Assembly (NCBI GenBank): GCA_919902665.1
Contig: CAKKRK010000149.1
Span: 1-58,829, forward strand
From: Nitrospiraceae bacterium
Lineage (GTDB): Bacteria > Nitrospirota > Nitrospiria > Nitrospirales > Nitrospiraceae
Reading direction: 5' to 3'
Length of the DNA: 58,829 bases
A program made the translations under genes and the position numbers. How positions within the stretch are numbered: position 1 is the first letter of the stretch; every line of letters begins with the position of its first letter. The notes beneath the pieces were generated by a model. That model was given only the letters and a program-made list of their open reading frames with translations. It did not search any database and was not told where the DNA came from. Shown here in pieces: positions 29,115 to 47,726 of the stretch.

Positions 29115-29138
29115 GGTTGCGCTGTATTGCACGGGTGA

Positions 29139-29176: not shown

Positions 29177-29250
29177 CATTGATGGGTAGAGGATTGATTG
29201 CGAGAAGAGTGTTTTGTCCGAGCAGGCTGCCCTCCGGCTCGGACCAGCGT

Positions 29251-29295
29251 GGGACGGAGGCGCACCTCCCTTGGCCTCCGCCCCGCACGTTTTTT
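29251..29295 (+). terminator. intrinsic terminator upstream of tonB-like gene
   Basis: CGGAGGC (29255-29261) pairs with GCCTCCG (29274-29280), extended on the outside by three G-C pairs after one mismatch. Six T residues follow at 29290-29295. It probably ends the envelope-module transcript, which would leave the TonB-like gene with its own promoter. Confidence 0.55.
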
Positions 29296-29350
29296 CGCTA
29301 GCAGAGGTGCTGAGGGTTGCCTAACTGCACGTGAACGGCGATAAGGAAGC

Positions 29351-30214: not shown

Positions 30215-30609
30215 CGTCTTAAATCTCTTGCCAGATAGCCACGCCAGCCACCGTAGGCGGTGATCTCCCGATGACCTTCGACGAGTGCCGGTTCGCCCAA
30301 CACACCCAAGACAATGCTTCCGTCCTCCAGCCGCACCTTTCCGATGCACAGACCCGGGGGTTCATTCAGCAAGATCCCCGCCAGTCCGGCGGTGGGCACT
30401 GACCAGACTTCGACCACGACGTTGGTGCCGGTCCCATCGGTGACGCGCAGCATCGCGGGATGCTCGTCGTTGATCGTCCAGAGACGATACGCCGGCTCGG
30501 TCTGCGTCTCCCGGACGAACGTTGCCTTGGCCGCCACCATGTTGTGGTTAAGTTTGAGTCCTCGCATCAGCGTGCCGTTGACCGCGAGCAGCACGCCGTT
30601 CTGATTCAC
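30211..30609 (-). CDS. stand-alone AtzF C-terminal domain protein
   Basis: A 132-residue protein resembling the C-terminal domain of allophanate hydrolase AtzF, often annotated as 'allophanate hydrolase-related' or gamma-glutamylcyclotransferase-like. Recognisable parts are [15 protein letters not shown] at the start and the late [13 protein letters not shown]. The amidase domain that cleaves allophanate in AtzF is absent, and nothing in the window replaces it. In AtzF this domain acts after the amidase on the carboxycarbamate intermediate; alone it may process a small carboxylated product of the neighbouring hydrolases. Its start overlaps the stop of the hydrolase upstream (ATGA), so it is the last gene of the operon. 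Confidence 0.7.
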
Positions 30610-31304
30610 GAGGTGCTCCCTGCATAGGTCTGCTGAAGAGATTTGATGAGAGGATCAGCCGATGTGACCCAGCCGACAATGCCCCCTTGCGATTGGATCA
30701 TGCGGACTGTGGCCTGTTTAAACTCGGGGAAATAGCTTTCCGTCCCATCCTCGACCAGGAGACATTCAAAACCACGGTCGTTGGCTTCTCTCATGCTGGT
30801 TTGCACACAGACTTCAGTCGTCACGCCGGTAAACACCAGGTGAGTGATGCCGAGCGTCTTTAGACGTTCCTGTAAATTGGTGGCGTAGAATGCCCCCTTG
30901 CCCGGCTTGTCGATGACGAGTTCGCCGGTCGCGGGATGCAGCTCCGGGACGATATCGTTTCCCGGTTCTCCTAAGACCAGAATGCGCCCCATCGGACCGG
31001 GATCGCCGATGCGGAGCGTGGACTCTCCACGCCGTTTCTTGGCCGGCGGACAATCCGAGAGATCGGGACGATGGCCCTCCCTCGTGTGAATCACGGGCAA
31101 TCCCAACTCACGAAAGGTCTTGAGGAGTTTCGCGACGGTCGGCACAATTTTCTGCAGATGTTCGACCTTATTCCCAAGCGCCGCGCCGAATCCGCCCTGC
31201 TCGACAAAATCGCGCTGCATGTCGATGATCACCAATGCCACTCGACTACCCGAATCTTTCGCTGGTAAAGGATAAGGATAAGGAGATGCGATGACGGTAT
31301 TCAT
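30606..31304 (-). CDS. isochorismatase-family cysteine hydrolase A
   Basis: A 232-residue cytoplasmic amidohydrolase of the isochorismatase-like family. The catalytic triad is visible: Asp in VIIDMQRDF, Lys in [15 protein letters not shown] and Cys in [17 protein letters not shown]. It is a paralogue of the biuret hydrolase-like protein at 32821 (shared [16 protein letters not shown] and KPGKG blocks) but has lost the CGKGGYVD segment and the [10 protein letters not shown] loop, so a different ureide or amide is expected. It is overlapped at both ends by operon neighbours. The substrate is not known. Confidence 0.8.
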
Positions 31305-32824
31305 GTCGTATGTCCTGTCATGTGTCGCCCAATGATCGCCAGGTCGGCGCCGGACGACGTGGTTTCATAGACGAGTTGCCCGTTGAACATCACCACCGTG
31401 CGGTCGGACAGCTCCATGATCTCGTCGAGATCTTCGCTGACCAGCAGCACGGCCGTCCCGCGATTGCGCGCGGCGACAATCTGCAGGCGAATTTCCTCCA
31501 TGGCCAGAAAGTCCAGCCCGAAACAGGGGTTGGCGATGATCAGAATCTCCACCTCCGCCGACAGCTCACGCGCCAGGACCGCCCGCTGTATGTTGCCTCC
31601 CGAGAGCGACTGAATGGGCGTGTCGGGATAGGGTGGTTTGATGTTGTAGCGCTCGATCAGCTCGAATGCGCTGCGGCGCAGTGCCGGGTGGCTGATGAGC
31701 CAGCCGCCCACCGCGTGAGGTTCACGATCGAAATTGCGAAAGGCCAGGTTCTCCGCCACCGTCATGCGTCCCACGCACGTGTTCTGGAGCGGTTCTTCCG
31801 GCAGACAGAATATCTTGTGCCGCATGATCTGCTCGCGGGTCGGCTGAAAAGGCTGATCTTGCACGTGGATCGTGCCGGACGTGGTTTGGCGTTGCCCAGA
31901 CAGGATCTCGACCAGTTCTCGCTGGCCATTGCCCGATACCCCGGCCACTCCGACGATCTCGCCTTCATGGATGGTGAGATGCAGCCCTCGCACGACTTCC
32001 ACCCCGATATCATCCTTGACACGGATATCTTGCAGGACCAGCTTTGGAACTTTCTTTGACAGGACGGTCCGTTGCTTCGGCCTCGCCGTCACTTCCGAAC
32101 CTACCATCATCTCCGCCATCTGAGAGACGTTCAATTCCGAGACGTTTCCTGAACCCACGAATTGTCCCTTGCGAAGGACGGTTACTTCGTCAGCAAATGC
32201 CGCCACTTCGCGAAGCTTGTGGGTAATGATGAGGACACTCACCTGTTGCGCCAGGGTCATGGCCCGGAGATGGCCCAGGACTTCATCCGCTTCTTGTGGG
32301 GTCAGGACCGAGGTTGGTTCGTCCAAAATAAGGATGCGGTTCCGCAGCGCGAGTTGTTTGAGGATTTCGACTTTTTGTTTTTCGCCTGCGGCAAGCGAAC
32401 TGACGCGAGCGGAGAGCGACACCTTGAACGGCATTGTGTCCATGAACTGCGTCAGCTGATGCTCTTCCTGCTGCCAATTGATGACGGGGTCCAACTTGGC
32501 CTTGGAGATCACCAGGTTCTCGAGGACCGTCATGTTGGGGATCAGAGTAAATTGCTGATACACCATGCCGATCCCGAAAGTCTGTGCGTCGCGTGGGCTA
32601 TGGATCGTGACCGCTTGCTGATCCAATACAATTTTCCCCTCATCAGGGTGGTAATACCCCATGATGCATTTGACCAGGGTGCTTTTGCCCGCGCCGTTTT
32701 CACCGAGCAGGGCATGGAATTGACCTGATCGGAGGTGGAAGTTCACGTCCTTCAAGGCCACGAGTGGTCCGAAGCGTTTGGTAATCCCCAACGCCTGCAA
32801 ATCTGGAGGAGCTCCATCCGTCAT
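31301..32824 (-). CDS. ABC transporter ATP-binding protein (BMP/nucleoside-type, two domains)
   Basis: A 507-residue ATPase with two fused ABC domains, as in RbsA/YufO systems. Domain 1 has an intact Walker A (GENGAGKST), a variant signature [13 protein letters not shown] and Walker [10 protein letters not shown]. Domain 2 has a degenerate Walker A ([10 protein letters not shown], no lysine), signature [11 protein letters not shown] and a weak Walker B ([13 protein letters not shown]), so it probably hydrolyses ATP poorly, as is common in this family. It energises the permeases at 33552 and 34469. It overlaps both flanking hydrolase genes by ATGA. Confidence 0.9.
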
Positions 32825-33504
32825 GAAAGCGCCTCTAACAGAGCGTCCGATTTTGCCACGGCGCCGAACACTCCGCCCTGCATGGTGACCATCTTGATCG
32901 CAGCCTGGTGATTCCCCAAATCAGTTGCGCCGCAACAGTCTTCCAGTAAGAGACATTCGAACCCCCGATCATTCGCTTCGCGCATGGTGGTATGGACACA
33001 GACATCGGTGGTGATCCCCGCCAAAATCACATTTTGGATGCTGCGAAGCCGCAACAACATCTCCAAATCGGTAGCCCAGAATGACCCTTTGCCCGGCTTG
33101 TCGATGATGGGTTCGCCGGATTTGGGCGTGAGTTCTGGGATGATGTCCCATCCAGGCTCCCCTCGAACCAGGATTTTCCCGCAAGGACCGGGATCTCCGA
33201 TGCCGGCTCCGATTCTCCGGCTGCGCCACCGCTTATTGTCCGGTAGATCTGCCAAGTCAGGACGATGGCCTTCTCTCGTGTGGAAGACATGCATTCCAAT
33301 GGTTCTGGCTTTCGACAGCACTTTGAGGATATGCGCGATCGGGGCTCGGGTGAGAGAAATGTCGTAGCCCATCTTGTCGACATAGCCACCCTTGCCGCAA
33401 AAATCAGTCTGCATGTCGATGATGAGAAAGACCGTATTGTCCGGCCGTAAATCCCCATTGTATGGATAGGGGTAGGGATCGGATGCGACATACTTCTTAT
33501 CCAT
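32821..33504 (-). CDS. biuH: biuret amidohydrolase-like cysteine hydrolase
   Basis: A 227-residue isochorismatase-family hydrolase with triad residues in [28 protein letters not shown] and [17 protein letters not shown]. The whole protein closely follows my memory of rhizobial biuret hydrolase Biu[16 protein letters not shown], the [14 protein letters not shown] block, [22 protein letters not shown] and [14 protein letters not shown]. BiuH converts biuret to allophanate plus ammonia. That comparison is from memory, and a related ureide amidase activity is possible. The start follows AGAGGTGAACA. Its place inside an operon with a carbamoyltransferase and an AtzF-C-like gene supports ureide breakdown. 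Confidence 0.7.
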
Positions 33505-33551
33505 TGTTCACCTCTTCACTGTGTAGAGCGGGGTCTGTCATGCGATATGTC

Positions 33552-34469
33552 CTAACGAGTCATGGTCAGCTCACGCGGGACTCCCACGAGAGTCCGTTTG
33601 GGAGAGCAGGTGATGATCATCATAGCCAGCGTCATGATGTAGGGGATCGCGTTGAAGATATAATATCCGCCCGTGACTCCCACGGATTGCAAGGATGGCC
33701 CTAACGCAGCCGCCCCTCCCCACAAGAGCGATACCCAGAGGCAGCCGATCGGCTGCCAGCGGGCAAAGATCACCAGCGCCACCGCCATCAGCCCCTGCCC
33801 GCTCGAAAGGCCTTCGCTCCAGTTGAATGGGTAGTAGAGGGAGAGATAGGACCCACCGATTCCGGCCAGAAATTCTCCCATAGCGGTGCTCATGATTCTG
33901 ATTCGATCAACCGGCAATCCTAGGGCACGTGCCGCATCGGCGCTTTCGCCGACGACCCGGACCTTTAATCCCCATGCCGTGTTCTTCAACATCCATCCGA
34001 GTACGACCGCAACAACGATCCCGACCAGAAACAAAGCATTGATCTGCAGAGCCGCCTGGAGCTGCGGAATATCACTCCACCCACCGAGATCGATCGAGGG
34101 TAATCGAGGCGCAGATGGCTGGATATAGGGCTTCCCCAGAAAAAAGGCTAACCCCGTGCCGAACAGCATCATCGCGATCCCGACTGCGATGTCGTTGACT
34201 CGTTGGAAACTACAGATCCAGCTGTGTAAGACCCCAAGCACCATGCCGGCTAGTCCCGCACACAAGACTCCCAGCCACGGAGACCCGCTATGCAGTGAGA
34301 TGGCGTAGCCGGTCATGGCACCCATGACCAGTGTGCCTTCTAGGCCCAAATTGATGCGGCCGCTTTTCTCGGTCAAACATTCGCCTAACGACACAAAAAG
34401 AAACGGTGTGCCGATTCGAATCGCTCCGCCTAGCACAGCGATGAGCACTCCCCACCACCCGACTTCCAT
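33552..34469 (-). CDS. ABC transporter permease 2 (BMP type)
   Basis: A 305-residue inner-membrane permease with eight to ten hydrophobic helices, of the branched-chain/ribose permease superfamily. The segment LTEKSGRINLGLEGTLVMGA is the family signature near the N-terminus, and GESADAARALGLPVDRIRI is the conserved cytoplasmic coupling loop. It forms a heterodimer with the permease at 34469, and its start overlaps that gene's stop by one base. Confidence 0.9.
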   Translation of the reverse strand: MEVGWWGVLIAVLGGAIRIGTPFLFVSLGECLTEKSGRINLGLEGTLVMGAMTGYAISLHSGSPWLGVLCAGLAGMVLGVLHSWICSFQRVNDIAVGIAMMLFGTGLAFFLGKPYIQPSAPRLPSIDLGGWSDIPQLQAALQINALFLVGIVVAVVLGWMLKNTAWGLKVRVVGESADAARALGLPVDRIRIMSTAMGEFLAGIGGSYLSLYYPFNWSEGLSSGQGLMAVALVIFARWQPIGCLWVSLLWGGAAALGPSLQSVGVTGGYYIFNAIPYIMTLAMMIITCSPKRTLVGVPRELTMTR

Positions 34470-35533
34470 CAGGATGCTCCTTGTTTCTGTAACTTCGCAA
34501 AACGACCGTACAGGGTTTCGCTAAAGAGGATGACGAGGAAAATGATCCCCTGCATCACGAGCACGGTCGCATCGGGTAACTCATGCGCACGCTGCAACAA
34601 CCCGCTGCTGGCACGGATGCCTCCCAACAAGACGGCGACAGGAATGATGGCCAATGGATTATTGCGTGCTACAAAGGCCACGAGAATACCGGCATAGCCA
34701 TAGTTGGCATTGAGGGTGTCATTCGCTCTGCCATGGATGGCCGCCACTTCCAACATCCCTGCTAGCCCGCCTGCCGCCCCCGCCACGCAACAGATGGTCA
34801 AGATCAGCCGTCCGACCGGCAGGCCTGCGACCTGGGCCGCGCGAACATTGCCCCCGGCAATCCGAGACGCGAAGCCGAAGACGGTGTGATGCATGAGAAA
34901 CCATGCAATGACACAGGCTACGATACCGAACACCAATCCCCAGTGAAGATCTGTTCCAGGAATCACACCGATCATATTGGCCTCTCCGATATGATGGGTC
35001 GAAGGATGGTTGAGGCTTTCCGGATCGCGAAAGGTGCTGGTGACAAGGTGGTTCAGCAGGGCGATGGCGATGTAGTTCAGTAACAGGCTGCTGATGGTTT
35101 CATTGACGGCGCGATAGTGCCGCAATGCTCCTCCGATCATAAGCCACACGCCGCCGGCTACCATGCCGGCGAGTGCCATGGTGGTCAGAACGACTATGGG
35201 AGGAGCTGTGGGCATGGTGAGAGCCACAATGGCCGCGAAGAGGCCTCCCATGACGACGGCGCCTTCGCCTCCGATAATAATCAAGCCGAGATACCCAGGC
35301 AGTGCGGTGCAGAGGGCTGTCAGCATCAACGGTGCGGCTCGCACCAACGTGTTCTGCCATGAGAATGAGGTGCCGAAGGCGGCACGATACATGGTCTGAT
35401 AGACCTCGAACGGATCGGCTCCGGCCGAAGCGACAAAGATCCCGAATAACACCATCGAGACCGTCAGGGATCCAACGATGATAAGAAACGGTTCCAGCGC
35501 CTTGTTCAAGATCTGTGGCACGGCTACGCTCAT
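34469..35533 (-). CDS. ABC transporter permease 1 (BMP type)
   Basis: A 354-residue inner-membrane permease with about nine helices. The loop GGNVRAAQVAGLPVGRLIL is the conserved ATPase-coupling segment. The start is set at ATG 35533 (MSVAVPQILNKALEP), which overlaps the binding-protein stop by ATGA; the frame extends to a TTG at 35569 inside that gene. It partners the permease at 33552 in uptake of a purine-, nucleoside- or ureide-like solute. Confidence 0.88.
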   Translation of the reverse strand: MSVAVPQILNKALEPFLIIVGSLTVSMVLFGIFVASAGADPFEVYQTMYRAAFGTSFSWQNTLVRAAPLMLTALCTALPGYLGLIIIGGEGAVVMGGLFAAIVALTMPTAPPIVVLTTMALAGMVAGGVWLMIGGALRHYRAVNETISSLLLNYIAIALLNHLVTSTFRDPESLNHPSTHHIGEANMIGVIPGTDLHWGLVFGIVACVIAWFLMHHTVFGFASRIAGGNVRAAQVAGLPVGRLILTICCVAGAAGGLAGMLEVAAIHGRANDTLNANYGYAGILVAFVARNNPLAIIPVAVLLGGIRASSGLLQRAHELPDATVLVMQGIIFLVILFSETLYGRFAKLQKQGAS

Positions 35534-36666
35534 GACTTGGTTGAACCGATGACTCCCTCGACCAGCCAATCCATGCTTTCCAGCCAGATGTCAGTCTGGA
35601 CATGTTCCTTGCCTGCAGCAATGACGACGCGACCGGTATTGTCTTTGATCGGGCCCTTGTACACGACCATCCCTCCACCCATGAATTTGTCTTTGGCTGC
35701 GTCGGCTTGTTTGCGAACAGCGTCGGTGACGACCTGGTTATAGTCCGATACCTTGACGATTCCTTCCTTTAAACCACCACGCACGAGATGGGGTGCGGTC
35801 TGCCCTTTTCGAATCATCTCGGCATAATCCATATAGACCTTGGCCCAATTCCATTCCGCTCCCGTGAGATACCCTTTCGGGGCAAGCTTAGATTGGTTGC
35901 AGTGGTAGCCGGTGCAATAGATGCCTCGTTTTTCGGCAGTTGTGATGACGACCTTGGGGCTGTCGACGTGACAGGTGATGACATCGATGCCTTGGTCGAC
36001 CAAACTGTTCGTAGCTTCCGCTTCTCGGACCGGCAACGACCAGTCGCCCGTAAAAATCACATTGGTCGTACAGTTGGGTCTGATGCTACGGGCACCGAGG
36101 GTATAGTTGTTGATATTGCGCAACACTTGCGGAATGGGTTTCGCAGCGACAAACCCCAGCTTCCCGCTCTTGCTCATTCCGCCTGCGACGATGCCGGCGA
36201 TATATTGCGACTCATCAATGAAGCCAAAGTAACTCCCGACGTTCTTGGGGTGTTTGCCCTCTTGGTAAAGCCCACCGCAATGCAGAAACTGGATGTTGGG
36301 AAATTGTGGCGCGACCTTGATTATATGGGGATCGAAATAACCGAAGGAGGTGGGAAACAACACTTGTGCTCCGTCCAGCTTGACCATGCTTTCCATGGTT
36401 TTTTGGACCTCGATGGTTTCGGGCACCTTTTCTTCATCAAAGGCCTTCACCCAATCAAGTTTGGCGACCGCCGCTTTCCCTTCAAAATGTGCCTGGTTGT
36501 ACCCATAGTCGTCTCGCGGACCCACAAAGATGAAGCCCATCTTCACCTTATCCGCTGCGCCCCAGGCTTGGCCGATCCACTCCAAGTTGCCCAACATGCC
36601 CAGCGCCCCGGCAGCTGCGGTCCCCTGTAAAACTTGGCGTCTCGTCAGTTTGCGTGATTCGGACAT
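35530..36666 (-). CDS. BMP-family periplasmic substrate-binding protein
   Basis: A 378-residue solute-binding protein of the basic membrane protein (PnrA/Med-like) family. The N-terminus has a twin-arginine signal (LTRRQVLQGTAAAGALGMLG), so it is exported folded through Tat. The mature part begins near ADKVKMGFIFVGPRDDYGYN, the family's N-terminal motif. Known relatives bind nucleosides or purines; with ureide-hydrolase genes in the same operon, a ureide ligand is likely here. A strong GGAGGGG lies upstream of ATG 36666. Confidence 0.9.
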   Translation of the reverse strand: MSESRKLTRRQVLQGTAAAGALGMLGNLEWIGQAWGAADKVKMGFIFVGPRDDYGYNQAHFEGKAAVAKLDWVKAFDEEKVPETIEVQKTMESMVKLDGAQVLFPTSFGYFDPHIIKVAPQFPNIQFLHCGGLYQEGKHPKNVGSYFGFIDESQYIAGIVAGGMSKSGKLGFVAAKPIPQVLRNINNYTLGARSIRPNCTTNVIFTGDWSLPVREAEATNSLVDQGIDVITCHVDSPKVVITTAEKRGIYCTGYHCNQSKLAPKGYLTGAEWNWAKVYMDYAEMIRKGQTAPHLVRGGLKEGIVKVSDYNQVVTDAVRKQADAAKDKFMGGGMVVYKGPIKDNTGRVVIAAGKEHVQTDIWLESMDWLVEGVIGSTKS

Positions 36667-36706
36667 ATGCCCCTCCCTCAGGGTGAGATGTGTATGGCTG
36701 GCTGCA

Positions 36707-37657
36707 TTACTTCACAATAAATGTTCCCGTTTCGCCGGCCAGGGCGCGACCGATATTCTCAGGATTGGTGATCAACCCGGTCTCTCCACCCCCTTCTATG
36801 AATTCGATCACCGCCTGAATCTTCGGTCCCATGCTGCCTCTATCGAATTGATTGTCCGCATAGTGTTTCCTTGCTTCAGCCACGGTCATACGGTCCAGCC
36901 ATCGCCGGTCAGGCTTATTGAAGTTGAACGCCACCTTCTCGACTCCTGTGGAAACCAGCAACAAATCAGCCCCAATGCCACGGGCCAGCAGGCTTGAGGC
37001 CAAGTCCTTGTCAATAACAGCTTCGACGCCGATCAGATTCCCTTCCTCGTCTTGAACCACGGGAATCCCGCCGCCACCGCAAGCAATGACGACAAATCCC
37101 GCTCGAGCCAAGAGGTTGATGGCCGCCAATTCGACGATGGTCTTTGGCTGGGGCGACGGCACAACCCGCCGCCACCCGCGTCCCGCATCTTCCTTGACCA
37201 CCCATCCTTGGCGAGAAGCGAGCCGTTGCGCGGTCTGTTCGTCCATCTGAGATCCGATCGGTTTAGAGGGATCGGCAAATGCCGGGTCGTTTCGGTCCAC
37301 CAAGGTCTGCGTGATGATGGCCACCGCCTTTCGATCGATCTTCTGCTTGCGGAATTCGTTGTAGAGGGCTTTGAGGAACATGTACCCGATGCCGCCTTGC
37401 AGATCGGCATCGGCATAGTCCATCGGCACGGGAGGAACTTCCTCTAAGGCTAATTCGGAGCGGCGCAGAATGAAGCCAACCTGAGGACCGGTCCCATGGG
37501 TGATGACGACATTCCACCCGGCTGCGATCATCTCCGCGATGTGATGTGTCGTGATAACCGCCTCGCGACTTTGATCCGGAATCGATTCGTGAGCCTTGTC
37601 GCGGATCAGCGCGTTGCCTCCGACAGCGACGACGGCAAGTTTGTTCGTGGGGCTCAT
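36707..37657 (-). CDS. arcC: carbamate kinase
   Basis: A 316-residue amino-acid-kinase-fold enzyme that reversibly makes ATP and carbamate from carbamoyl phosphate and ADP. Motifs include VVAVGGNALI, THGTGPQVGFIL, ACGGGGIPVV, VEAVIDKDLASSLLA and the end RGSMGPKIQAVIEFIE. It follows allG by 17 bases with a good ribosome-binding site. It has no arginine-deiminase partners here; instead it sits with the FdrA/AllG carbamoyltransferase, as AllK does in the E. coli allantoin region. It therefore probably harvests ATP from a ureide. Confidence 0.93.
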   Translation of the reverse strand: MSPTNKLAVVAVGGNALIRDKAHESIPDQSREAVITTHHIAEMIAAGWNVVITHGTGPQVGFILRRSELALEEVPPVPMDYADADLQGGIGYMFLKALYNEFRKQKIDRKAVAIITQTLVDRNDPAFADPSKPIGSQMDEQTAQRLASRQGWVVKEDAGRGWRRVVPSPQPKTIVELAAINLLARAGFVVIACGGGGIPVVQDEEGNLIGVEAVIDKDLASSLLARGIGADLLLVSTGVEKVAFNFNKPDRRWLDRMTVAEARKHYADNQFDRGSMGPKIQAVIEFIEGGGETGLITNPENIGRALAGETGTFIVK

Positions 37658-37674
37658 CAGCTACATCCTCCCGT

Positions 37675-39090
37675 TCACTGACTGCTGCCTATTGAGTGCG
37701 CGAGTGCGGACACAGCTTGCGTAAAACAGGCCAGGGGAGCGCGCGTAATTCCGGCGCCGATCTGGCCGATTCCGGCTTCCCGATGGGCAATGCCTGTATT
37801 GATGATCGGTTGAATGCCGGTATCGACGACCTTCCGGACGTCGATGCCCGCCGGTGAGCCTGCAAAGTTCAGTGCCGGCAGCGTGAAGGCATTATTGCGG
37901 CCAACGGTGATATGCGTCATGGCCATGGTGTTGTCGATCGCATCCTGCGGTGTCCCGCCGACGAACTTGACGATGGCCGGAGACGCGGCCATGGCGAATC
38001 CGCCGACACCGGCGGTTTCAGTGATGGCACTATCTCCCAAGTCAGGCGCTGCGTCGGCCGCGCTGTATCCGGGAAAGAAGAGTCCATCGACGACCGGGGC
38101 TGGTGCCGTAAACCATCGGCTTCCGGTGCCGCTGACTCTGATGCCGAACTCGACACCGTTACGGGCCATGGCTGTGACCATACTGCTGCCCGGAACACCA
38201 TGGGCTGCGTCGGTCATCGCTTTGCAGGCTGCCATGGACAGATTTAAGAAGAAGTGGTCATTGCCTGCGATGAACTCGACGACCGCCGCGATGTCGGCGG
38301 CGGGGATGTGGGTCTTCAACAATGCTGAAATGAGGCGCTTCAGGAACAGTGAGGAGGCAGCGGCGTTGCGATTATGCACTTCGTCGCCCATGTGGAGGGC
38401 CTGCGCCATCATGGGTTTGAGGTCTACCCCGCCTAGGAGTTCAAGAGCGTCTCCAAGGGCTGGTGCGAGTACCTGCCCCATCCATTTGAGACGGGTGATC
38501 ACGTCCGGACCATTGGCGCCGAACCGGAGCGCTTTGCCGAGGCCCTCGTTAAAGTTGCTGAACGCCTGATTTCCATTTGTCGTGTTGGTCACCATCCAGA
38601 CCGGCATGGATGGGCTGATGATCCCGGCCATCGGTCCGACGGCATTGTGGTGGTGGCACGGCTCGAACACGATGTCACCGCTGAAGGCCATAGCCTCCGC
38701 CCTGGCTAGATTTTCTGCCCAGCCTTCATAGAGAATAGCTCCGACGATGGCTCCCTTCATGGGCCCGCACATATCCTTCCACGCAATGGGAGGACCACTG
38801 TGCAGGATCATCCGCTCTGCGATGTTGGGCAGCACCTGGCTGGCGGTGCCCACGCCGTTCAACACCGGCTGGGCCGATTGGTAGGCATCGAACGCTGTCT
38901 GGTTGGCAGTTTCAACGGAGAGCAGGTTGACCAACCGGGCCAACGCACGACCGACCTCCTGCTGCCCCTGAGCAGGCGGGGCCCATTCAATCTGGAGCAC
39001 AGAACCCCCCGCCCTCGTGATTGAATCGGCGAAGGACGACAGGCCGATATTTAGGACATGGAGCTTCTCCTGAAACAGGGCCTGTATCAC
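37675..39090 (-). CDS. allG: carbamoyltransferase subunit AllG/YlbE (DUF1116)
   Basis: A 471-residue DUF1116 protein. The sequence WAPPAQGQQEVGRALARL near the start, SGDIVFEPCHHHNAVGPMAG and the ending IGQIGAGITRAPLACF fit the YlbE family. In E. coli FdrA, YlbE and YlbF (AllF, AllG, AllH) have been reported as the subunits of oxamate carbamoyltransferase, which phosphorolyses oxalurate to oxamate and carbamoyl phosphate. The GTG start overlaps the fdrA stop (GTGA), so the two subunits are translationally coupled. Confidence 0.85.
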   Translation of the reverse strand: MIQALFQEKLHVLNIGLSSFADSITRAGGSVLQIEWAPPAQGQQEVGRALARLVNLLSVETANQTAFDAYQSAQPVLNGVGTASQVLPNIAERMILHSGPPIAWKDMCGPMKGAIVGAILYEGWAENLARAEAMAFSGDIVFEPCHHHNAVGPMAGIISPSMPVWMVTNTTNGNQAFSNFNEGLGKALRFGANGPDVITRLKWMGQVLAPALGDALELLGGVDLKPMMAQALHMGDEVHNRNAAASSLFLKRLISALLKTHIPAADIAAVVEFIAGNDHFFLNLSMAACKAMTDAAHGVPGSSMVTAMARNGVEFGIRVSGTGSRWFTAPAPVVDGLFFPGYSAADAAPDLGDSAITETAGVGGFAMAASPAIVKFVGGTPQDAIDNTMAMTHITVGRNNAFTLPALNFAGSPAGIDVRKVVDTGIQPIINTGIAHREAGIGQIGAGITRAPLACFTQAVSALAHSIGSSQ

Positions 39091-40643
39091 AATCGTCCTC
39101 CGACGGCGTCAGGTTTCTGGACGGCAGAGGCGGCCATGCGCACAGCCTGAGCATTGCTCTCCGCAAGGGTCATCCCGACCTCTCGAAAAGCCGTTTCCTG
39201 CTTGGACAGATTCTGAGGGTCCGCTGCTGTGCCGCAGACGAATCCCATGATGGCCAGGTGTCTGCCTGCTTTGGAGGCGAGATCGCGCGCTTTCTGAATC
39301 ACTGGGGCCATCTCAGCGGCAGGATCTGGGTGAGATCCGTAGCCCAGGACCACGTCCAATAGAATTACTGCGACCTCGGGATCGCTGGCTTCCTTGATCA
39401 GCCGCTCATTTCGGAGCCGATGGTCAATCATGGGATGGGGGCGTCCACGAGTGAAGAGATCGTCGCCCAGATCAATGACCGTGTGCTTTCGACTGGTCCA
39501 GACATCACTCAAACGATCCTCTGGCTCTACTGGAGTGTTGGAATTGATCTGCCCCAGTTCTTTCTTCAGGAGGAGCGAAGCCTCGTAGCAAAAGGTGCCG
39601 CCGCTATAGAGGCCCCGGATGTATCGCTGCTGCGGAGCAAGAGGTGTGATGGAAGGAGAGGTCACACTCGCTCTCCCGGCTTCGGGAATCCTGCCGTTGG
39701 CGAGCGCCACCGCCGCCGCTGCTGCATCCTCAAGCGTCGCGGCGGGGTAAATATTCTCGCGTCGCACCTGATCGGGATCGGCACCAAGAAAATTGACGAC
39801 CACCGGCTTGCCTGCGCCGCTGGCTGCCCTCAGTACCGTGCTGGCTACCTCCGGCGACGGAGGTTTAGAAATGAGCACAATCACGGAGGTGGAGGAATCG
39901 GCTGCCAGCGCCTTAAGGCCCTGAAGCATGGAAATACCGCCGACATCGCGGTGCAAATCGTGTCCGCCCGTTCCGATCGCCTGCGAGATGCCACTGCCCC
40001 ATCGGTCGACCAGGCAGGTTACCTGTTGGAGGCCAGTGCCAGATGCGGCGACGACACCGATGACTCCGCGACGCACCACATTCGCGAACGCAAGCGGGAT
40101 GCCATTGATAATGGCGGTTCCGCAGTCCGGGCCCATGACAATGAGATCACGCTCCTGGGCGAACCGTTTGAGCGCGATCTCGTCCTTGAGCGCGATGTTG
40201 TCACTAAAGAGCATGACATTGAGGCCGAGACCCAACGCCTTGAAGGCCTCCGCCGCGGCGTACTCGCCTGGCGTGGAGATCAAAACGAGGTTTGCGCCGA
40301 CGAGGTTCCCGAGCCCCATCTCGATGCTGCGGGGAGACATGCCGCGTGATTGTTCATTGCCGGTCGACGAAGGGGAAGGTTGCTTCAGCGCGGATTCTGC
40401 CGCAGTAAGCGCCGATTCAAGTGCCTCGGCATTTCCTTGAAGAGCGATCAACAAGTCGTTTGCGCCAGCTTCAACGGGTTCCGCCAACAGGCCCGCTTCC
40501 ACGAGAAGTGTCACATTGTTGGGAGAGGCCATGATGGCCGACGCTTGTTCCACGCCGGGCAGTTTGGTAATCGTGGAAGACAGCTGCATCAACGAGACGG
40601 AGTCGCGGTAGAAGTTCCGGATTATTTTTGTCGCCCTGGCCAT
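39087..40643 (-). CDS. fdrA: FdrA/AllF, acyl-CoA-synthetase-like carbamoyltransferase subunit
   Basis: A 518-residue FdrA-family protein related to the alpha and beta chains of succinyl-CoA synthetase. The start (FYRDSVSLMQLSSTITKLPGV) is the FdrA N-terminal domain, with a GPDCGTAIINGIPLAFAN block in the middle and a flavodoxin-like C-terminal third (VILLDVVLGYGSHPDP). It would form the oxamate-carbamoyltransferase-type complex with AllG and AllH. It is the first gene of the ten-gene minus-strand operon, and a perfect TTGTATACAA palindrome lies 200 bases upstream. Confidence 0.87.
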   Translation of the reverse strand: MARATKIIRNFYRDSVSLMQLSSTITKLPGVEQASAIMASPNNVTLLVEAGLLAEPVEAGANDLLIALQGNAEALESALTAAESALKQPSPSSTGNEQSRGMSPRSIEMGLGNLVGANLVLISTPGEYAAAEAFKALGLGLNVMLFSDNIALKDEIALKRFAQERDLIVMGPDCGTAIINGIPLAFANVVRRGVIGVVAASGTGLQQVTCLVDRWGSGISQAIGTGGHDLHRDVGGISMLQGLKALAADSSTSVIVLISKPPSPEVASTVLRAASGAGKPVVVNFLGADPDQVRRENIYPAATLEDAAAAAVALANGRIPEAGRASVTSPSITPLAPQQRYIRGLYSGGTFCYEASLLLKKELGQINSNTPVEPEDRLSDVWTSRKHTVIDLGDDLFTRGRPHPMIDHRLRNERLIKEASDPEVAVILLDVVLGYGSHPDPAAEMAPVIQKARDLASKAGRHLAIMGFVCGTAADPQNLSKQETAFREVGMTLAESNAQAVRMAASAVQKPDAVGGRL

Positions 40644-40947
40644 GTAGATGGTCCCCCATCGACGCCTCGCCTTGGCAGGCTCACAGCGTCAACGTCAGGC
40701 GGGTGAGTTGACCTCCCGCCGATGGCTTATGCGGCGAACGTCAAATCTAGCAGCGTGATGCCTCGTCTAAGAATAAGGAACGAACGACCGAAGGGTACTG
40801 CCGACTTAATATCTGATAGTTAGACGGCTAACTTGAACACAAGGTTGTATACAAAGTCAAGGGCAAAGCCAGGGTTCGAGTCATAGGCCGAATCAGCTCG
40901 AGGAACGACCATCGTCTCATCACCTCTTACATCTTTCGATTCGGGTT
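40644..40947. other. regulatory gap between allH and fdrA
   Basis: No gene is seen in these 304 bases. They contain the GntR-type palindrome at 40845-40854, directly abutted on the minus strand by TTGACT (40860-40855), a good -35 box. No convincing -10 was found at the right spacing, so the fdrA promoter position is uncertain. Confidence 0.6.
40845..40854. promoter_or_regulatory. TTGTATACAA operator upstream of fdrA
   Basis: A perfect 10-base palindrome, TTGTATACAA, matching the T-N-G-T-A-T-A-C-N-A type of site bound by GntR regulators of the FCD class. The same 10-mer occurs once more, at 42784-42793 ahead of gntR1. About 0.06 copies of a given 10-mer are expected in a random sequence of this length. 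The two tandem GntR proteins encoded at 41967 and 42935 are the obvious binders. Confidence 0.65.
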
Positions 40948-41928
40948 TCATGGTTGGGCCCTTGAATCGCAGAGAACAGACAAACGAAGAAGGTCACTGA
41001 AAATCAGATGAGGAGGCAGGCCCTGCCACGCAAGACAGCCTAACAGCAGGCCTAACACCCCGTCGGATCCAGAAGTATGGCCGACTTGCAACGCGGCTTG
41101 CGTGGCTGCCCTGATGCTGCTCATATTGTTTGCCTGGTTCAGTCGCTGCGCTAATTTCGCGATGGGTTCAGAGACATGGCCGTTGGCTGCGGACCGGAGA
41201 TAGGCGCGGCTGATCTCATTGGTGTTCCGTGACGCGTCCGACAGTTCAGATCCTAAAGCCGTCAGGAATCTCATCCGAGATGAGGTGCCCCCTGCCGTGC
41301 ACCATAATCCGGCCATGTAGCCCACGAGGAAATCATCGCCCGATGGCGTCAAGCCGTACCCAAGGCCGATGAGTGCTCTCACGGAGAGCATGGCCTCTCT
41401 TAATCGGAGGCGGCACGTCGTCTCTAGAAGCGACGGGATAGTGTGAGCGCTCTGTTGGAGTAGAATCTCCGAGACCGCCGGCGTGGCAGGCCGTTTTCTT
41501 GATCGGAAAGAAACCCCCAGATGGTCCGATAGGCTATCTTTGTGGTAATGCCTGTTCAATTCAGACCAAGCAACTGCCCAGGATTGAGCCTGAGTGGGTC
41601 GGCAAAGATCGATGTGCAACCCTTTGAGATCGATGTGCCAGGGGCGTGCAGGTCGCAGATCGACGGAACAATCAGCTCCGTCGATGCGGAGTATTCCTCC
41701 CCGACATGCGGCTGATTGTCCAACTCGAAGGGTATGTAGGAAGTCAAAATGAGATGAGGTGTCTAAGCGAATGCCGTGAGGGGCATTACCTTTCTGGTAT
41801 GGAAGGAGGGTCAGCAGTTTGCCGGGCTCTAGCCATAAATTGCAGGCCTGGCGGAACACACTGTGTACGGTTCCGCTGAAAGAATGACGTGGTACCTGAA
41901 TGCCGACCGAAAGGGCCTGAACACGCAC
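40948..41928 (-). CDS. allH: carbamoyltransferase subunit AllH/YlbF (DUF2877)
   Basis: A 326-residue DUF2877 protein. The family signature GLGYGLTPSGDDFLVGYMAG is clear at about residues 190-210, and a second block, HTSGSDGVLGLLLG, lies near the end. In E. coli the homologue YlbF/AllH completes the FdrA-YlbE oxamate carbamoyltransferase. Here it is separated from fdrA by 304 bases and instead sits 38 bases downstream of gntR1, so it is probably co-transcribed with that repressor. The start is GTG 41928. Confidence 0.82.
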   Translation of the reverse strand: MRVQALSVGIQVPRHSFSGTVHSVFRQACNLWLEPGKLLTLLPYQKGNAPHGIRLDTSSHFDFLHTLRVGQSAACRGGILRIDGADCSVDLRPARPWHIDLKGLHIDLCRPTQAQSWAVAWSELNRHYHKDSLSDHLGVSFRSRKRPATPAVSEILLQQSAHTIPSLLETTCRLRLREAMLSVRALIGLGYGLTPSGDDFLVGYMAGLWCTAGGTSSRMRFLTALGSELSDASRNTNEISRAYLRSAANGHVSEPIAKLAQRLNQANNMSSIRAATQAALQVGHTSGSDGVLGLLLGCLAWQGLPPHLIFSDLLRLSVLCDSRAQP

Positions 41929-41966
41929 GATGGGTACCCCATCGTCCCAAAATTACGGGGCGTTCA

Positions 41967-42677
41967 TTAGGTTTTTATCGAGTAGGCTCTGGCTAATGCA
42001 TCCTTGATCGCCGTATGGACGTTGTTGCGTCCTTCTTCGATGTTTTGTTGTATTGCCGCCCGTGCTCCAGGCGTATCCTGGGCTGTTATGCACTTCAGGA
42101 TTTTAAGATGTTGATGGCATGTGCTCTTGGCTCGATCCGTCTTGTCGAAATCGATCATGCGAAAAAGCATCAAGCGTTCGTTGATGGTCCGAAGGTGCCG
42201 CAAGAGCATCTTGTTTCCTGCAGCCTGGGCGAGCGTCTCGTGAAACAGAGTGTCTAGTCTGGCGAGTTCCTCGGCTTTCTTGGAAGATCCGTTCAGCAGG
42301 TCAGTCCAGGTCCGCTTCAACTTAACCAAGTCCTCCTTATCATTTTTGTTGAGCGGCCCCCTCTTTGCTAAGTATTCGACAGTATAGAGTTCCAGGGCTA
42401 GTCGCACTTCATATAGCTCCTCGATCTCAACGATGTTATGCTGCCTGACCACGTAGCCACGATTCGGCAATTTTTTCACGAATCCATCGGTTGCCAGTAC
42501 ACGAAGCGCTTCCCGGACAGGGCTCCGACTCACGTTGAATGTCTTACAGAGTTCAACTTCGGTCAATCGATGTTCGGGCGGGTAGTGCCAGTGAATGATG
42601 TGTTCTTTCAGTGTGGCGACAATCGACGAACTAAGGTTGGATGGTTCTCCTTCTACGATTCGGTCATTGCGAATCAT
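41967..42677 (-). CDS. GntR-family regulator, FCD domain, copy 1
   Basis: A 236-residue transcription factor. The N-terminal winged helix-turn-helix (TEVELCKTFNVSRSPVREAL) is followed by an all-helical FCD effector domain with the usual acidic and histidine ligands (RLALELYTVEYL, LDTLFHETLAQAAGN, CHQHLKIL). It is a close paralogue of copy 2 at 42935, with nearly the same DNA-reading helix, so both should bind the same site. TTGTATACAA overlaps the -10 box of its own promoter, implying autoregulation. The effector is probably a small carboxylate or ureide of the pathway. Confidence 0.92.
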   Translation of the reverse strand: MIRNDRIVEGEPSNLSSSIVATLKEHIIHWHYPPEHRLTEVELCKTFNVSRSPVREALRVLATDGFVKKLPNRGYVVRQHNIVEIEELYEVRLALELYTVEYLAKRGPLNKNDKEDLVKLKRTWTDLLNGSSKKAEELARLDTLFHETLAQAAGNKMLLRHLRTINERLMLFRMIDFDKTDRAKSTCHQHLKILKCITAQDTPGARAAIQQNIEEGRNNVHTAIKDALARAYSIKT

Positions 42678-42782
42678 GATATTCTTTCGCGAGTCCGAGC
42701 CTCAGGAATAACCCAAGGGGGATGTCACATGATGTGCGGGCAGACAAACCGCTTTTATTTCCGGCGAGGCTAACTCTCCGAC

Positions 42783-42812
42783 ATTGTATACAATCAGGTC
42801 TACTAAGTTCAA
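42783..42812 (-). promoter_or_regulatory. gntR1-allH promoter with overlapping operator
   Basis: On the minus strand TTGAAC (42812-42807) and TATACA (42790-42785) form a promoter with a 16-base spacer. The 12-base palindrome ATTGTATACAAT (42783-42794) covers the whole -10 box. Binding of a GntR dimer here would block RNA polymerase. The leader to ATG 42677 is about 100 bases. Confidence 0.6.
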
Positions 42813-42934
42813 TCTGCCTGGGCGTCCTGCTCGTGCTCGCTCTCACGGTATGAAAAATGTTGAGCGTTGGGAGGGGGATGGGACGAGGCGAACCCAAGAT
42901 GCCGAACATCGTTCCATCGATTACGCAGTGCAAT

Positions 42935-43654
42935 TTAGGTATTCTTTAAGTAAGCCCTGGCCAGCGCATCCTTGATCGTCGTAGGGATGAGGCGGCGTCC
43001 TTCCTCGATATTCATCTGCATGGCGGCACGCGCGCCTGGGGCATCCTTGGCCACAATCCGATCCAAAATCTCCAGATGTTGGTGGCAGGTGTGTTTAGCG
43101 CGGTCTCGTCTCTCAAAATCGAGCAATCGAAACAGCCTGAGGCGTTCATTGATGGTCCGAAGGTGCTGCAGAAGGGATTTATTTCCCAGGGCTCGGGCTA
43201 GTGTATCGTGAAAGAGTGTGTCTAGGATGGCGAATTCCTCTGGTTTCTTGGACGATTCCTTCAAGAGTTCGGTCCAGGTTTGTTTGAGGTCGGCAAGTTC
43301 GGCCGCAAGCTGTGTCGTCTGCTTCTTGGTCGCGAGGCGTTCAACGGTATAGAGCTCCAGGGCTAGGCGCACATCATACAGCTCCTCGAGTTCTTCGATG
43401 CTATACTGCTTGACCGCGTAACTCCGATTCGGCAGTTTTTTGACGAAGCCATCGGCTGCCAACACTCGGAGCGCCTCCCGAACTGGGCTGCGGCTCACGC
43501 CGAAGGTCTTGCACAATTCGTCTTCGGTCACTCGGTGTTCCGGCGGGTAGTGCCAGTGAACGATGTGTTCCTTCAGTGTGTTCACGACCGACGAGCTTAG
43601 GTTCGAGGAGCCGTGTTTTTTCATTCGATCCTCTCGACGGGCTATCTTTCTCAT
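42935..43654 (-). CDS. GntR-family regulator, FCD domain, copy 2
   Basis: A 239-residue regulator with the same architecture as copy 1: winged helix (TEDELCKTFGVSRSPVREAL), then an FCD domain (RLALELYTVERL, ILDTLFHDTLARALGN, CHQHLEILDRI). Most positions are shared with copy 1, which indicates a tandem duplication, yet the effector-domain helices differ enough for a changed ligand. GGAGGAG lies nine bases before ATG 43654. No TTGTATACAA site was found ahead of this copy, so it may be expressed constitutively. Confidence 0.92.
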   Translation of the reverse strand: MRKIARREDRMKKHGSSNLSSSVVNTLKEHIVHWHYPPEHRVTEDELCKTFGVSRSPVREALRVLAADGFVKKLPNRSYAVKQYSIEELEELYDVRLALELYTVERLATKKQTTQLAAELADLKQTWTELLKESSKKPEEFAILDTLFHDTLARALGNKSLLQHLRTINERLRLFRLLDFERRDRAKHTCHQHLEILDRIVAKDAPGARAAMQMNIEEGRRLIPTTIKDALARAYLKNT

Positions 43655-43671
43655 CTATTATGCTCCTCCAT

Positions 43672-43690
43672 GGGGCAGGCATCTTGCCCC
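43672..43690 (-). terminator. GC-rich hairpin between slp-like gene and gntR2
   Basis: GGGGCA (43672-43677) pairs with TGCCCC (43685-43690) around a 7-base loop. It lies 80 bases past the stop of the Slp-like gene and just ahead of the gntR2 ribosome-binding site. It could end the lipoprotein transcript or shape the gntR2 leader; there is no T-run. Confidence 0.3.
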
Positions 43691-43769
43691 TGAGATGTTG
43701 GGTGCCAATTGGAAATGTTTGGTCTGAGGGGTGGGCATATGATGGTCGCCTGACCGACGAGGCTCACCA

Positions 43770-44309
43770 CTAGTAGGGCCAGGCGTGCCAGTGTGGAGAC
43801 CAGTAGGGTCCCCAATAGGGGCCAGGGCCGATGGGACGGCGAATGCGAGGGGGCTCCTCGTCGGTCTCGGTCCACACGCGCAGATTGGTGACGTTGAGAA
43901 GCGGGTAGGTGTACTCCGTCTCATCGAGTGGGAGGGTGACAGACCCAGCTATCTCTCCGGTAACGGTTACAAATGTACCGGGGGGGATCGTTGCAGGATC
44001 AAGGAATTGCTTCTGCATCGCGATGAATCGGCCCTGGGATTTGCTGAGGTCCATGGTTGGCTGGAGAAAGGAGTCCAGCGCCAATTGAAGAATTTCGATC
44101 CTTGTCCCCTCCTTCAAGCGCCGTGCGCCCAACACCTTCCCTCCGAACGTCACCGGCTGTCCGTTGTATGATCCTGGTGTTTCCTGCACCTGCGCATAAC
44201 TGATCTGAGAAGGGGCCGCAGGCACGGCGCCGGTCAGGTTTCCGTTTGAGGCACAGCCGGATACAATCAACAGCACCGACGCGATCCAAACAGACCAAGA
44301 CATTCGCAT
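43770..44309 (-). CDS. Slp-family outer-membrane lipoprotein
   Basis: A lipoprotein of about 179 residues with signal sequence SWSVWIASVLLIVSGC, lipobox VSGC. The domain resembles Slp/YeaY: SYAQVQETPGSYNGQPVTFGGKVLG, then an OB-like FVTVTGEIAG. The tail is rich in Pro, Trp and His (GPYWGPYWSPHWHAWPY) and could contact metal or the cell surface. ATG 44309 is preferred: a TATACT box ends six bases before it, suggesting a leaderless mRNA. An ATG at 44345 is open but lacks a ribosome-binding site. The role of Slp proteins is poorly known. Confidence 0.75.
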   Translation of the reverse strand: MRMSWSVWIASVLLIVSGCASNGNLTGAVPAAPSQISYAQVQETPGSYNGQPVTFGGKVLGARRLKEGTRIEILQLALDSFLQPTMDLSKSQGRFIAMQKQFLDPATIPPGTFVTVTGEIAGSVTLPLDETEYTYPLLNVTNLRVWTETDEEPPRIRRPIGPGPYWGPYWSPHWHAWPY

Positions 44310-44390
44310 GACAAGAGTATAACAGAGCACAAAGAGACGCTTCATCCGCTATAATGGGGCACGACTATTTACTCGTGAAAGGAGTTTTAG

Positions 44391-45047
44391 ATGAACGGTC
44401 GGACGATGTCGATCTGGACGTGTGTGCTTGTAGTTGTGGGTGCGATTGGGTTTGTGCATGCACCGGTGAGTGCCGCTGTGGACAAGCCGGAACTGAAGGG
44501 CAAGTTCGAGATTCTCAAGGATGAGCCGTCAACTCATCAAGCAGGCAAGGTGAAGGTGATCGAATTTGCGGATTTCTATTGCCCGCATTGTCATCACTTC
44601 GAGGAGACAGGGGTTCCTCTGCTACTGAAGGAATTTGGGAGTAAGCTCGAGGTCACCATGGTCGGATTTCCCGTGATTCCTGGGAAGCTGCCGACCCCGT
44701 TCGACATGTATGAGCAGGCGAAGCTGATGGGCAAAGGCGATCAGATGAAGGCTGTCCTGTTTCGCATCATTCACAAGGAAAAACTTGATGGGGTGCTGGA
44801 TCGTTCCATTCGCGCCATGTTGATCCGGGAGGTCGGGTTGGACGTCAACACGTTCGAAATGGGAATGGAAAGTGGAAAGCCGGCCAAACTGTTCGAAGAG
44901 GGGCGTCGATGGGGCGAACGGATCAAGGTGTCATCCACGCCGTCGCTCTTGCTGGACGGGAATATCAAGGTCGATGGTGCGAACATGACACCTGAGAACG
45001 TCATCATCATTATCCGGAGCATTCTTGAAGCGGATGCGAAGAAGTAG
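44391..45047 (+). CDS. DsbA-like periplasmic thiol-disulfide oxidoreductase
   Basis: A 218-residue exported thioredoxin-fold protein. The signal peptide (TCVLVVVGAIGFVHAPVSAA) precedes a DsbA-type domain with active site FADFYCPHCHHFEE and the cis-proline loop VSSTPSLLLDG. CPHC is the redox site of DsbA, so it should introduce disulfides in the periplasm. It stands 51 bases ahead of the copper ATPase gene and may be co-transcribed, which fits oxidative folding of copper-resistance proteins. AAAGGAG precedes ATG 44391, and a TATAAT box is at 44350-44355. Confidence 0.87.
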   Translation: MNGRTMSIWTCVLVVVGAIGFVHAPVSAAVDKPELKGKFEILKDEPSTHQAGKVKVIEFADFYCPHCHHFEETGVPLLLKEFGSKLEVTMVGFPVIPGKLPTPFDMYEQAKLMGKGDQMKAVLFRIIHKEKLDGVLDRSIRAMLIREVGLDVNTFEMGMESGKPAKLFEEGRRWGERIKVSSTPSLLLDGNIKVDGANMTPENVIIIIRSILEADAKK

Positions 45048-45098
45048 TGAGGAGTGAAAGGGGAATAGTAGAAGGGGACGAGAAGAGGCCCGTTGATA

Positions 45099-47726
45099 AT
45101 GGCCATTGATCCTATCTGCGGCATGACGGTTGATCCGGCCAAGGCGGCCGGTCGGTATGACCATAACGGCACGACCTATTATTTTTGCGCCGTGTCATGT
45201 CTGGAACGGTTTCGTGCCGACCCCGACCGTGCGCTGAGCAAGAGGCCACTGAATCTGATCACGATGCCTGCTCCACGGAAGCCGTTGCCGATGATGGTGC
45301 AAGCGGCGACCGGCGAAATCGATCCCGTGTGCGGCATGACGGTGCAACCGGCCACTGCAGCCGGTTCCTACGAATATCGAGGAAAGAAGTATTACTTCTG
45401 TGCCACTCGATGTCTCGAAAAGTTCAGAGCCGATTCCGACTATTATCTGATCCCACCTGACCAGCGCATTCCGAAGCCGACGCCTGCCCCAGCCGGCGGC
45501 AGCGTCCAATATGTCTGCCCGATGGATCCAGAGGTGTCGGAAACCAAACCGGGCGCCTGCCCTGTCTGCGGGATGGCGCTGGAGCCAGCGGACGTGACTG
45601 TTGCGAGCACGCGGACTGAATATAGCTGTCCTATGCATCCGGAAATTGTGCAGGCTGATCCTGGGAGTTGCTCGATCTGTGGGATGGCCTTGGAGCCGCG
45701 TACGGTGACGATGGAAGAGGCCAATCCTGAGTTGATCGATATGACTCGCCGATTTTGGCAGAGCGTTGTGCTTGGCTTGCCCATCCTGGCGTTGATGGTT
45801 TCCGAGATGATGCCGAGTCAGCCGTTGCAGCACTTCTTTTCAGGACAAGCACTGGTCTGGTTTCAGTTCGTGCTCGCGACGCCGGTGGTGTTCTGGGTCG
45901 GGTGGCCGTTGTTTGAACGAGCGTGGGCCTCGCTCGTCAATCGCCACCTGAATATGTTTACCCTCATCGGTCTTGGTACTGGTGCGGCCTATCTCTACAG
46001 TGTCATGGCGACTCTCGCGCCAGGCCTATTCCCTGATTCGTTCCGTGGTCACGGCGGAGCGCTCGCCGTCTACTTTGAACCAGCGGTAGCCATCATCGCG
46101 CTGGTTTTGCTGGGGCAGGTGCTGGAATTACGGGCGCGGAGTCGAACCAGTAGTGCTCTCAAGGCGCTCTTGGGGCTGGCACCGAAAACAGCGCGGATTG
46201 TTCGGGCTGATGGTCGCGAAGACGATATTCCATTGGACCAGGTCCAGGTGGGGGACCAATTACGCGTCCGACCAGGTGAGAAGATACCCGTCGATGGTGT
46301 GGTAGTGGATGGGATGAGTACCGTCGACGAATCGATGGTCACTGGTGAATCGATTCCCGTAGAAAAGCGAGCAGGGCAGAAAGTGGTGGGGGCGACCGTC
46401 AATGGAACGGGCAGTTTCGTCATGCGGGCCGAGCGAGTCGGTCGCGAGACGTTGCTCTCGCAAATTGTCCGTATGGTCAGCGAAGCGCAGCGCACGCGCG
46501 CGCCGATTCAACGGTTGGCCGATGTTGTGGCTGGGTATTTTGTACCGATCGTCATCCTTGTTGCCCTCGCCACCTTCGCGATGTGGGCGTTCCTTGGTCC
46601 CGAACCGCGTATGGCCTATGCGTTATTGAATGCAGTTGCGGTGTTGATCATCGCCTGTCCCTGTGCATTGGGACTTGCGACGCCCATGTCGATCATGGTC
46701 GGCACCGGGCGTGGCGCGACGGCAGGGGTGTTGATCCGAAACGCGGAAGCGCTGGAGACCTTGGCAAAGGTGGATATTCTTGTCGTAGACAAAACTGGCA
46801 CGCTGACGGAGGGCAAGCCTCGTCTCATGACGGTCGCTCCATTACCGGACTTTCGCGAGACGGAGCTTCTGAAGTTAGTAGCCGGGTTGGAGCAAGGCAG
46901 CGAGCATCCCTTGGCGGCGGCGATCGTGTCTGGTGCACGAGACAGGGGAATCGTTCCCGCAAAGGCACAGGATTTTCGTTCGCTCACGGGGAAAGGAGTG
47001 ACGGGGACAGTTGAGGGCCGTGTAGTGACCGTGGGGACTGCGCTGTTTCTCAACGAGTCGAACATCGAAACGACGGCCTTGTTGGCGCAGGCTGAACCTT
47101 TGAGACTTGAGGGCCAGACCGTGATGTTCGCGGCGATCGGCGGTAAGCCTGCAGGGTTGCTGGGTGTGGCTGATCCGGTCAAGTCCACCACGCCGGAGGC
47201 CATCGATTTATTGCATCGTGAAGGACTGCGGATCGTGATGCTGACCGGTGACAACCGGACGACCGCTGAGGCGGTGGCGCGCAGGCTCCAGATCGACGAA
47301 GTGCAGGCCGATGTCTTGCCCGAGCAAAAGGCAGCGGTCATCAAGCGGTTTCAAGCAGACGGACATGTCGTGGCCATGGCGGGAGATGGGATCAACGATG
47401 CGCCGGCTTTGGCGCAGGCGCACGTGGGGATTGCCATGGGAACTGGGACTGATGTGGCGATGGAAAGCGCGGGTGTGACGCTGGTGAAGGGCGATCTCCG
47501 GGCCATCGCCAGAGCGCGCCGATTGAGTCGAGGGACGATGAAGAACATCAGGCAGAATCTGTTCTTTGCATTCGTCTACAACACGCTGGGAGTCCCCATT
47601 GCCGCTGGAATCCTCTACCCGTTCGTTGGGGTGCTTTTGAGCCCAATGATCGCTAGTGCCGCCATGACGTTTAGTTCCGTATCAGTGATCGCCAACGCGT
47701 TGCGGCTACGAAAACTGGCTCTCTAA
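45099..47726 (+). CDS. Cu+-exporting P1B-type ATPase with YHS and HMBD repeats
   Basis: An 875-residue heavy-metal pump. Four small metal-binding modules come first: two YHS domains ([10 protein letters not shown] and [10 protein letters not shown], each followed by YYFC) and two heavy-metal-binding modules (YVCPMDPEV...CPVCGMAL and YSCPMHPEI...CSICGMAL). The usual HMA domain is absent. The core has TGES (about residue 414), the transport motif CPC (about 520), DKTGT (about 565), SEHPL and [10 protein letters not shown] in helix 7 and MxxSS in helix 8 mark the Cu+/Ag+ subgroup. It moves Cu+ from cytoplasm to periplasm. ATG 45099 is chosen over TTG 45093. Confidence 0.95.

Follow-up and report, generated by a model that had tools for sequence, protein, structure and literature searches.

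A possible ATP-conserving route for 1-carboxybiuret encoded by an AllFGH–carbamate kinase locus of comammox-type Nitrospira

The locus and its host genome

We analyzed a 58,829-nucleotide stretch of DNA (contig CAKKRK010000149.1, assembly GCA_919902665.1; hereafter, the window) from a Nitrospiraceae bacterium, which encodes homologs of the three subunits of the Escherichia coli oxamic transcarbamylase, AllF (FdrA), AllG (DUF1116), and AllH (DUF2877), together with a catabolic carbamate kinase, AllK. All four genes are intact and co-directional at 41928-36707, with profile matches to PRK06091, PF06545, PF11392, and TIGR00746, respectively. Relative to the E. coli proteins, the AllG of the window is 51% and its AllF 40% identical, and the boundary between the two is displaced: approximately 50 residues that constitute the C-terminus of E. 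coli FdrA are here found at the N-terminus of AllG (residues 6-53 align with PRK06091 507-554).

These genes belong to a single co-directional run on the minus strand, from 43654 to 30211, that extends from two GntR-type regulators through a free-standing AH_C domain, i.e., the C-terminal domain of the allophanate hydrolase AtzF (Table 1). The intergenic gaps from AllF through AH_C are all 47 nt or less, and 4-nt overlaps occur at AllF/AllG, BiuH/ATPase, ATPase/TrtA, and TrtA/AH_C. The order is retained wherever a contig of an AllG-bearing Nitrospira genome spans the locus, arguing that the arrangement did not arise by chance. An initial annotation of this DNA had listed the AllFGH and kinase set, a BMP-type importer, two isochorismatase-family hydrolases, and an AtzF-C-like protein, and all were recovered: the importer is represented by binding protein, permeases, and ATPase, and the hydrolases are a BiuH equivalog and a TrtA-like protein. 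The latter scored 299 bits against Herbaspirillum TrtA (6xix) versus 218 against BiuH (6xjm), clustered with the former (clade support 0.998), and was identical at 12 of 12 active-site residues (D24, F35, N41, E72, K129, K132, A134, E160, C162, Y187, Q202, and I205), as judged by the residues described as diagnostic for TrtA and BiuH (PMC7948467). An Rfam scan of 29000-45500 found no RNA family.

Table 1. Predicted features of the AllFGHK locus, with positions in the window
Feature	Coordinates	Strand	Evidence and remarks
GntR/FCD-type regulator 1	42935..43654	-	Open reading frame (ORF); homologs in order in sister loci; missing from some sister genomes
GntR/FCD-type regulator 2, directly upstream of allH	41967..42677	-	PF07729 and PF00392
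AllH (DUF2877), carbamoyltransferase subunit	40948..41928	-	PF11392, 7.5e-27
AllF/FdrA subunit	39087..40643	-	PRK06091, 509 bits; PF00549; C-terminus shorter than that of E. coli FdrA
AllG (DUF1116) subunit	37675..39090	-	PF06545, 5.5e-100
AllK, catabolic carbamate kinase	36707..37657	-	TIGR00746 (ArcC equivalog), 362.9 bits vs cut-off 358
BMP/PnrA-type substrate-binding protein of ATP-binding cassette (ABC) importer, twin-arginine translocation (TAT) signal	35530..36666	-	PF02608
ABC importer permease 1	34469..35569	-	ORF, conserved order; true start may be internal to ORF
ABC importer permease 2	33552..34469	-	ORF, conserved order
BiuH, biuret hydrolase	32821..33504	-	NF050097 equivalog, 407 bits vs cut-off 370; BiuH clade; BiuH signature residues
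ABC importer ATPase, two ATPase domains	31301..32824	-	PF00005, two stretches
TrtA-type triuret hydrolase	30606..31304	-	Best PDB match 6xix (Herbaspirillum TrtA)
Free-standing AH_C (AtzF C-terminal domain without amidase domain), 132 aa	30211..30609	-	PF21986, 6.8e-40; PDB 5c5z, 148 bits; 4-nt overlap with trtA

The window genome is that of a Nitrospira, 99.86% complete; it encodes urease and an ammonia monooxygenase (the gene is incomplete, lying at the edge of a contig), which identifies it as a complete ammonia-oxidizing (comammox)-type Nitrospira. Its sole amidase-signature protein is GatA, encoded beside gatC and gatB; thus, the genome holds no AtzF amidase, and AH_C stands alone rather than fused to an amidase-signature domain. 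Among 157 Nitrospiraceae genomes, only one (G084, a comammox genome) encoded a full AtzF over the cut-off, and there the full-length protein occupies the position of AH_C. The trtA gene of G084 is broken into two ORFs by a frameshift (loci L030/L068). Any reaction assigned to AH_C would be a guess from homology, both to the C-terminal domain of AtzF and to the uncharacterized protein in PDB 5c5z. The latter entry, labeled “Glutamyl-tRNA amidotransferase”, is itself a free-standing AH_C protein and a close relative of that in the window.

The lack of an allantoin branch, noted initially for the window, extends to the genome as far as it was searched. Neither a protein of the AllD family (PF02615) nor an allantoinase (AllB) over the cut-off was found in the window genome or in 14 sister genomes, AllC and AllE not having been searched genome-wide; the best match to the allantoinase profile (~241 bits vs 358) is probably dihydroorotase.

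Gene partners and phylogeny of AllG

We compared the locus with AllG relatives elsewhere, drawing on a scan of GTDB genomes (432 relatives, of which the best 80 were kept) to which Enterobacterales and plasmid loci were added. Outside Nitrospira, 67 AllG loci were found near either a TrtA-type hydrolase (60) or the cyanuric acid hydrolase AtzD (7). The TrtA-type gene was accompanied by AH_C in 31 loci (one of these AH_C counts, at L179, is doubtful), by AtzF in four, and by both BiuH and AtzF in one, and it stood alone in 24; AtzD occurred without AtzF in six loci and with it in one. Within clusters, AtzF and free-standing AH_C are mutually exclusive. Queries with E. coli AllA-E detected allantoin genes in none of the 67.

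The isochorismatases linked to AllFGHK match the TrtA signature, not that of BiuH, at the 12 published positions (with A or S at position 134, which is neutral); those from outside Nitrospira carry this signature, yet fall outside the TrtA clade in the tree. The possibility that they represent a new enzyme was dropped once the residue comparison had returned the TrtA signature. The AtzD proteins (at L182, L127, L140, L125, L177, L178, and L152) cleared the cut-off of 360 bits for the cyanuric-acid-hydrolase equivalog with scores of 391-581, and at L182, on a Shewanella plasmid, the order is AtzD, permease, AllH, FdrA, AllG, AllK, LysR. TrtA and AtzD have unrelated folds and a common product, 1-carboxybiuret (PMC7948467; PMC6219798), indicating that this compound is the feature their loci share.

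The AllG phylogeny is consistent with this division. The allantoin-linked AllG proteins of E. coli and other Enterobacterales form a clade of their own, and the AllG of the window, with those of other Nitrospira, is nested not there but within the clade linked to TrtA and AtzD, its nearest relatives coming from clusters that place AtzF beside AllF in divergent orientation. The two types differ at sequence positions that can be listed. On the tree, the partnership with AtzD calls for at least three separate changes.

A candidate carbamoyl donor

Based on gene context, active-site signatures, and trees, we consider it slightly favored (a probability of roughly 0.55) that AllFGH splits 1-carboxybiuret with phosphate, as part of an operon that would import and dismantle small polyureas; what AllFGH acts on, what AH_C does, and how much ATP results are all inferred. 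In this scheme, the importer would bring in small polyureas, and TrtA would convert triuret to 1-carboxybiuret and ammonia. AllFGH would then convert 1-carboxybiuret and phosphate to carbamoyl phosphate and allophanate, a step chemically parallel to the formation of carbamoyl phosphate and oxamate from oxalurate, and AllK would use carbamoyl phosphate and ADP to form ATP, ammonia, and CO2. By structural reasoning, carboxybiuret resembles oxalurate in being an N-carbamoyl amide with a terminal carboxylate. BiuH would hydrolyze biuret, either imported or arising from carboxybiuret by self-decarboxylation, to allophanate. As the window genome has no AtzF amidase, its outlet for allophanate is probably decarboxylation to urea, by AH_C or spontaneously, with urease completing the process; we propose this as the natural outlet in AH_C carriers generally, while in clusters with AtzF that enzyme would consume the allophanate made by AllFGH. 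We put at even odds the broader proposition that AllFGHK with a TrtA-type hydrolase or AtzD constitutes a widespread, unrecognized phosphorolytic route for 1-carboxybiuret, carried by comammox Nitrospira among others, that conserves ATP and joins the breakdown of triuret and cyanuric acid to substrate-level phosphorylation.

The distribution of BiuH and AtzF bears on the choice of donor. Among 30 carrier genomes outside Nitrospira (of unstated completeness), eight had BiuH, 11 had AtzF, and 18 had neither; with BiuH missing from 22, its products cannot be the usual substrate of AllFGH. This tells against allophanate, the product of BiuH, which on this alternative would be phosphorolyzed to carbamoyl phosphate and carbamate, AllFGH standing in for AtzF. 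The amidase is indeed absent from the window genome and, G084 excepted, from the AllG-bearing Nitrospira genomes, and clusters of ammonia-oxidizing archaea hold BiuH and AllFGHK with no collocated atzF (PMC12625717). Allophanate, once our first-choice substrate on account of the missing AtzF, was downgraded to an improbable one, given that BiuH is absent from most of the other carriers and that AtzF, which would be redundant beside such an AllFGH, belongs to several clusters. For biuret, an unlikely donor but the second-best fit after carboxybiuret, the scheme would have carboxybiuret decarboxylated first, by AH_C or spontaneously, and biuret then cleaved with phosphate to carbamoyl phosphate and urea. 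Carboxybiuret does decarboxylate on its own to biuret (PMC6219798), the AH_C and trtA genes overlap in the window, and urease was found in all 18 Nitrospira genomes tested. However, biuret lacks the carboxylate of oxalurate, AllFGH would compete for it with BiuH in comammox organisms, and AtzF would be left with no substrate in clusters of TrtA, AtzF, and AllFGHK from genomes without BiuH. Such genomes exist: in two of three checked among the clusters sister to comammox (behind L118 and L169), BiuH was found nowhere, so that allophanate would need to come from AllFGH. Carboxybiuret as donor would leave no gap in these clusters.

Oxalurate, scavenged from other organisms, was proposed as the substrate for comammox in mSystems 2025 (PMC12625717), and it has in its favor that oxamic transcarbamylase activity has been demonstrated for E. 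coli AllFGH (PMC11326118), to which the AllG and AllF of the window are related at the identities given above. It would leave unexplained both why TrtA and AtzD recur as partners and why allantoin-linked AllG forms a separate clade, and the window genome lacks AllD and an over-cut-off allantoinase; we therefore regard it as a doubtful candidate, a little less so than allophanate but more so than biuret. The initial view that the donor is probably something other than oxalurate thus gains support, the partners of this AllG clade being predicted carboxybiuret-forming enzymes. Of the donors suggested there (allophanate, biuret, and ureidoglycine), biuret retains a place, and the best fit, carboxybiuret, lies outside that list.

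Several observations weigh against carboxybiuret. The AllG tree was built with FastTree only, and its deep nodes are weak. In five of the 30 carrier genomes, a second, canonical TrtA lies beside BiuH, so the hydrolase linked to AllFGHK might act on another ureide. Reported clusters of ammonia-oxidizing archaea pair BiuH with AllFGHK, TrtA being unmentioned (PMC12625717), and biuret is a possible direct substrate in clusters lacking AtzF. Finally, the pathway can run without AllFGK: AllF, AllG, and most of AllK have been lost from three Nitrospira genomes (G099, which has ammonia monooxygenase, G111, and G151) in which the importer, BiuH, TrtA, and AH_C are still encoded. In all three, AllH stops at residue 84, which suggests a single loss event. 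Such dispensability is as expected for an energy-conserving shunt, and it does not discriminate among the candidate substrates. The Serratia-type carriers G164, G174, and G180 lack urease; in these, AllFGHK would be the only recognized gain past the first ammonia.

Known systems and other AllG loci

The gene set is itself already on record in the same kind of organism: trtA, biuH, the importer, and allFGHK have been reported together in comammox Nitrospira, with allFGHK read as oxalurate degradation, atzF as collocated, and TrtB as absent (PMC12625717). At the place corresponding to that “atzF”, the Nitrospira genomes examined here have an isolated AH_C, G084 excepted, and we infer that the reported gene is the free-standing AH_C gene. 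Relative to AllFGH and AllK of the anaerobic allantoin pathway of E. coli (PMC11326118), the window has the same three subunits and kinase and the same expected chemistry, but its AllG belongs to another clade and its genetic partners differ, as would the substrate. The Herbaspirillum triuret pathway, TrtA-TrtB-BiuH-AtzF (PMC7948467), shares with the window orthologs of TrtA and BiuH with identical active-site residues, whereas the window genome lacks the AtzF amidase and has free-standing AH_C and AllFGHK. In Pseudomonas sp. ADP (atzDGEHF; PMC6219798), the route likewise passes through 1-carboxybiuret and allophanate, but AtzEG and AtzH reach the latter hydrolytically; phosphorolysis by AllFGH, with which AtzD pairs in other genomes, would take one step and conserve ATP. 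In an open-access library, we found no paper tying FdrA/AllFGH to carboxybiuret phosphorolysis or to cyanuric acid.

Triuret is an impurity of urea fertilizer, and cyanuric acid is a residue of triazine herbicides that also derives from pool chemicals. If the carboxybiuret reading is correct, bacteria would gain ATP from these two compounds, for which the breakdown routes known so far are hydrolytic, and a nitrifier would recover both energy and nitrogen from carboxybiuret rather than from the purine product oxalurate. It would also supply a substrate for the many FdrA/DUF1116/DUF2877 modules that lack an assignment and amend the view that the comammox gene sets are oxalurate pathways with atzF. 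Further, it would account for the carbamate kinase genes beside atzC on atrazine plasmids: pADP-1 and pAD51 each carry an AllG fragment and a carbamate kinase at that position (L037:21489-22704 and L181:8983-10400), apparently remnants of an AllFGHK module.

Transporters vary among the TrtA/AllFGHK modules. One group (L115, L142, and similar loci) encodes a membrane protein of ~546 aa that matches no Pfam or NCBIfam family, and another (L129, L133, and similar loci) an NCS1 cytosine-type permease. Serratia oryzae (G165) has four AllG paralogs (L183, L223, L226, and L227), three of them in clusters devoid of allantoin genes, TrtA, and AtzD, suggesting that this AllFGH enzyme family probably has additional substrates.

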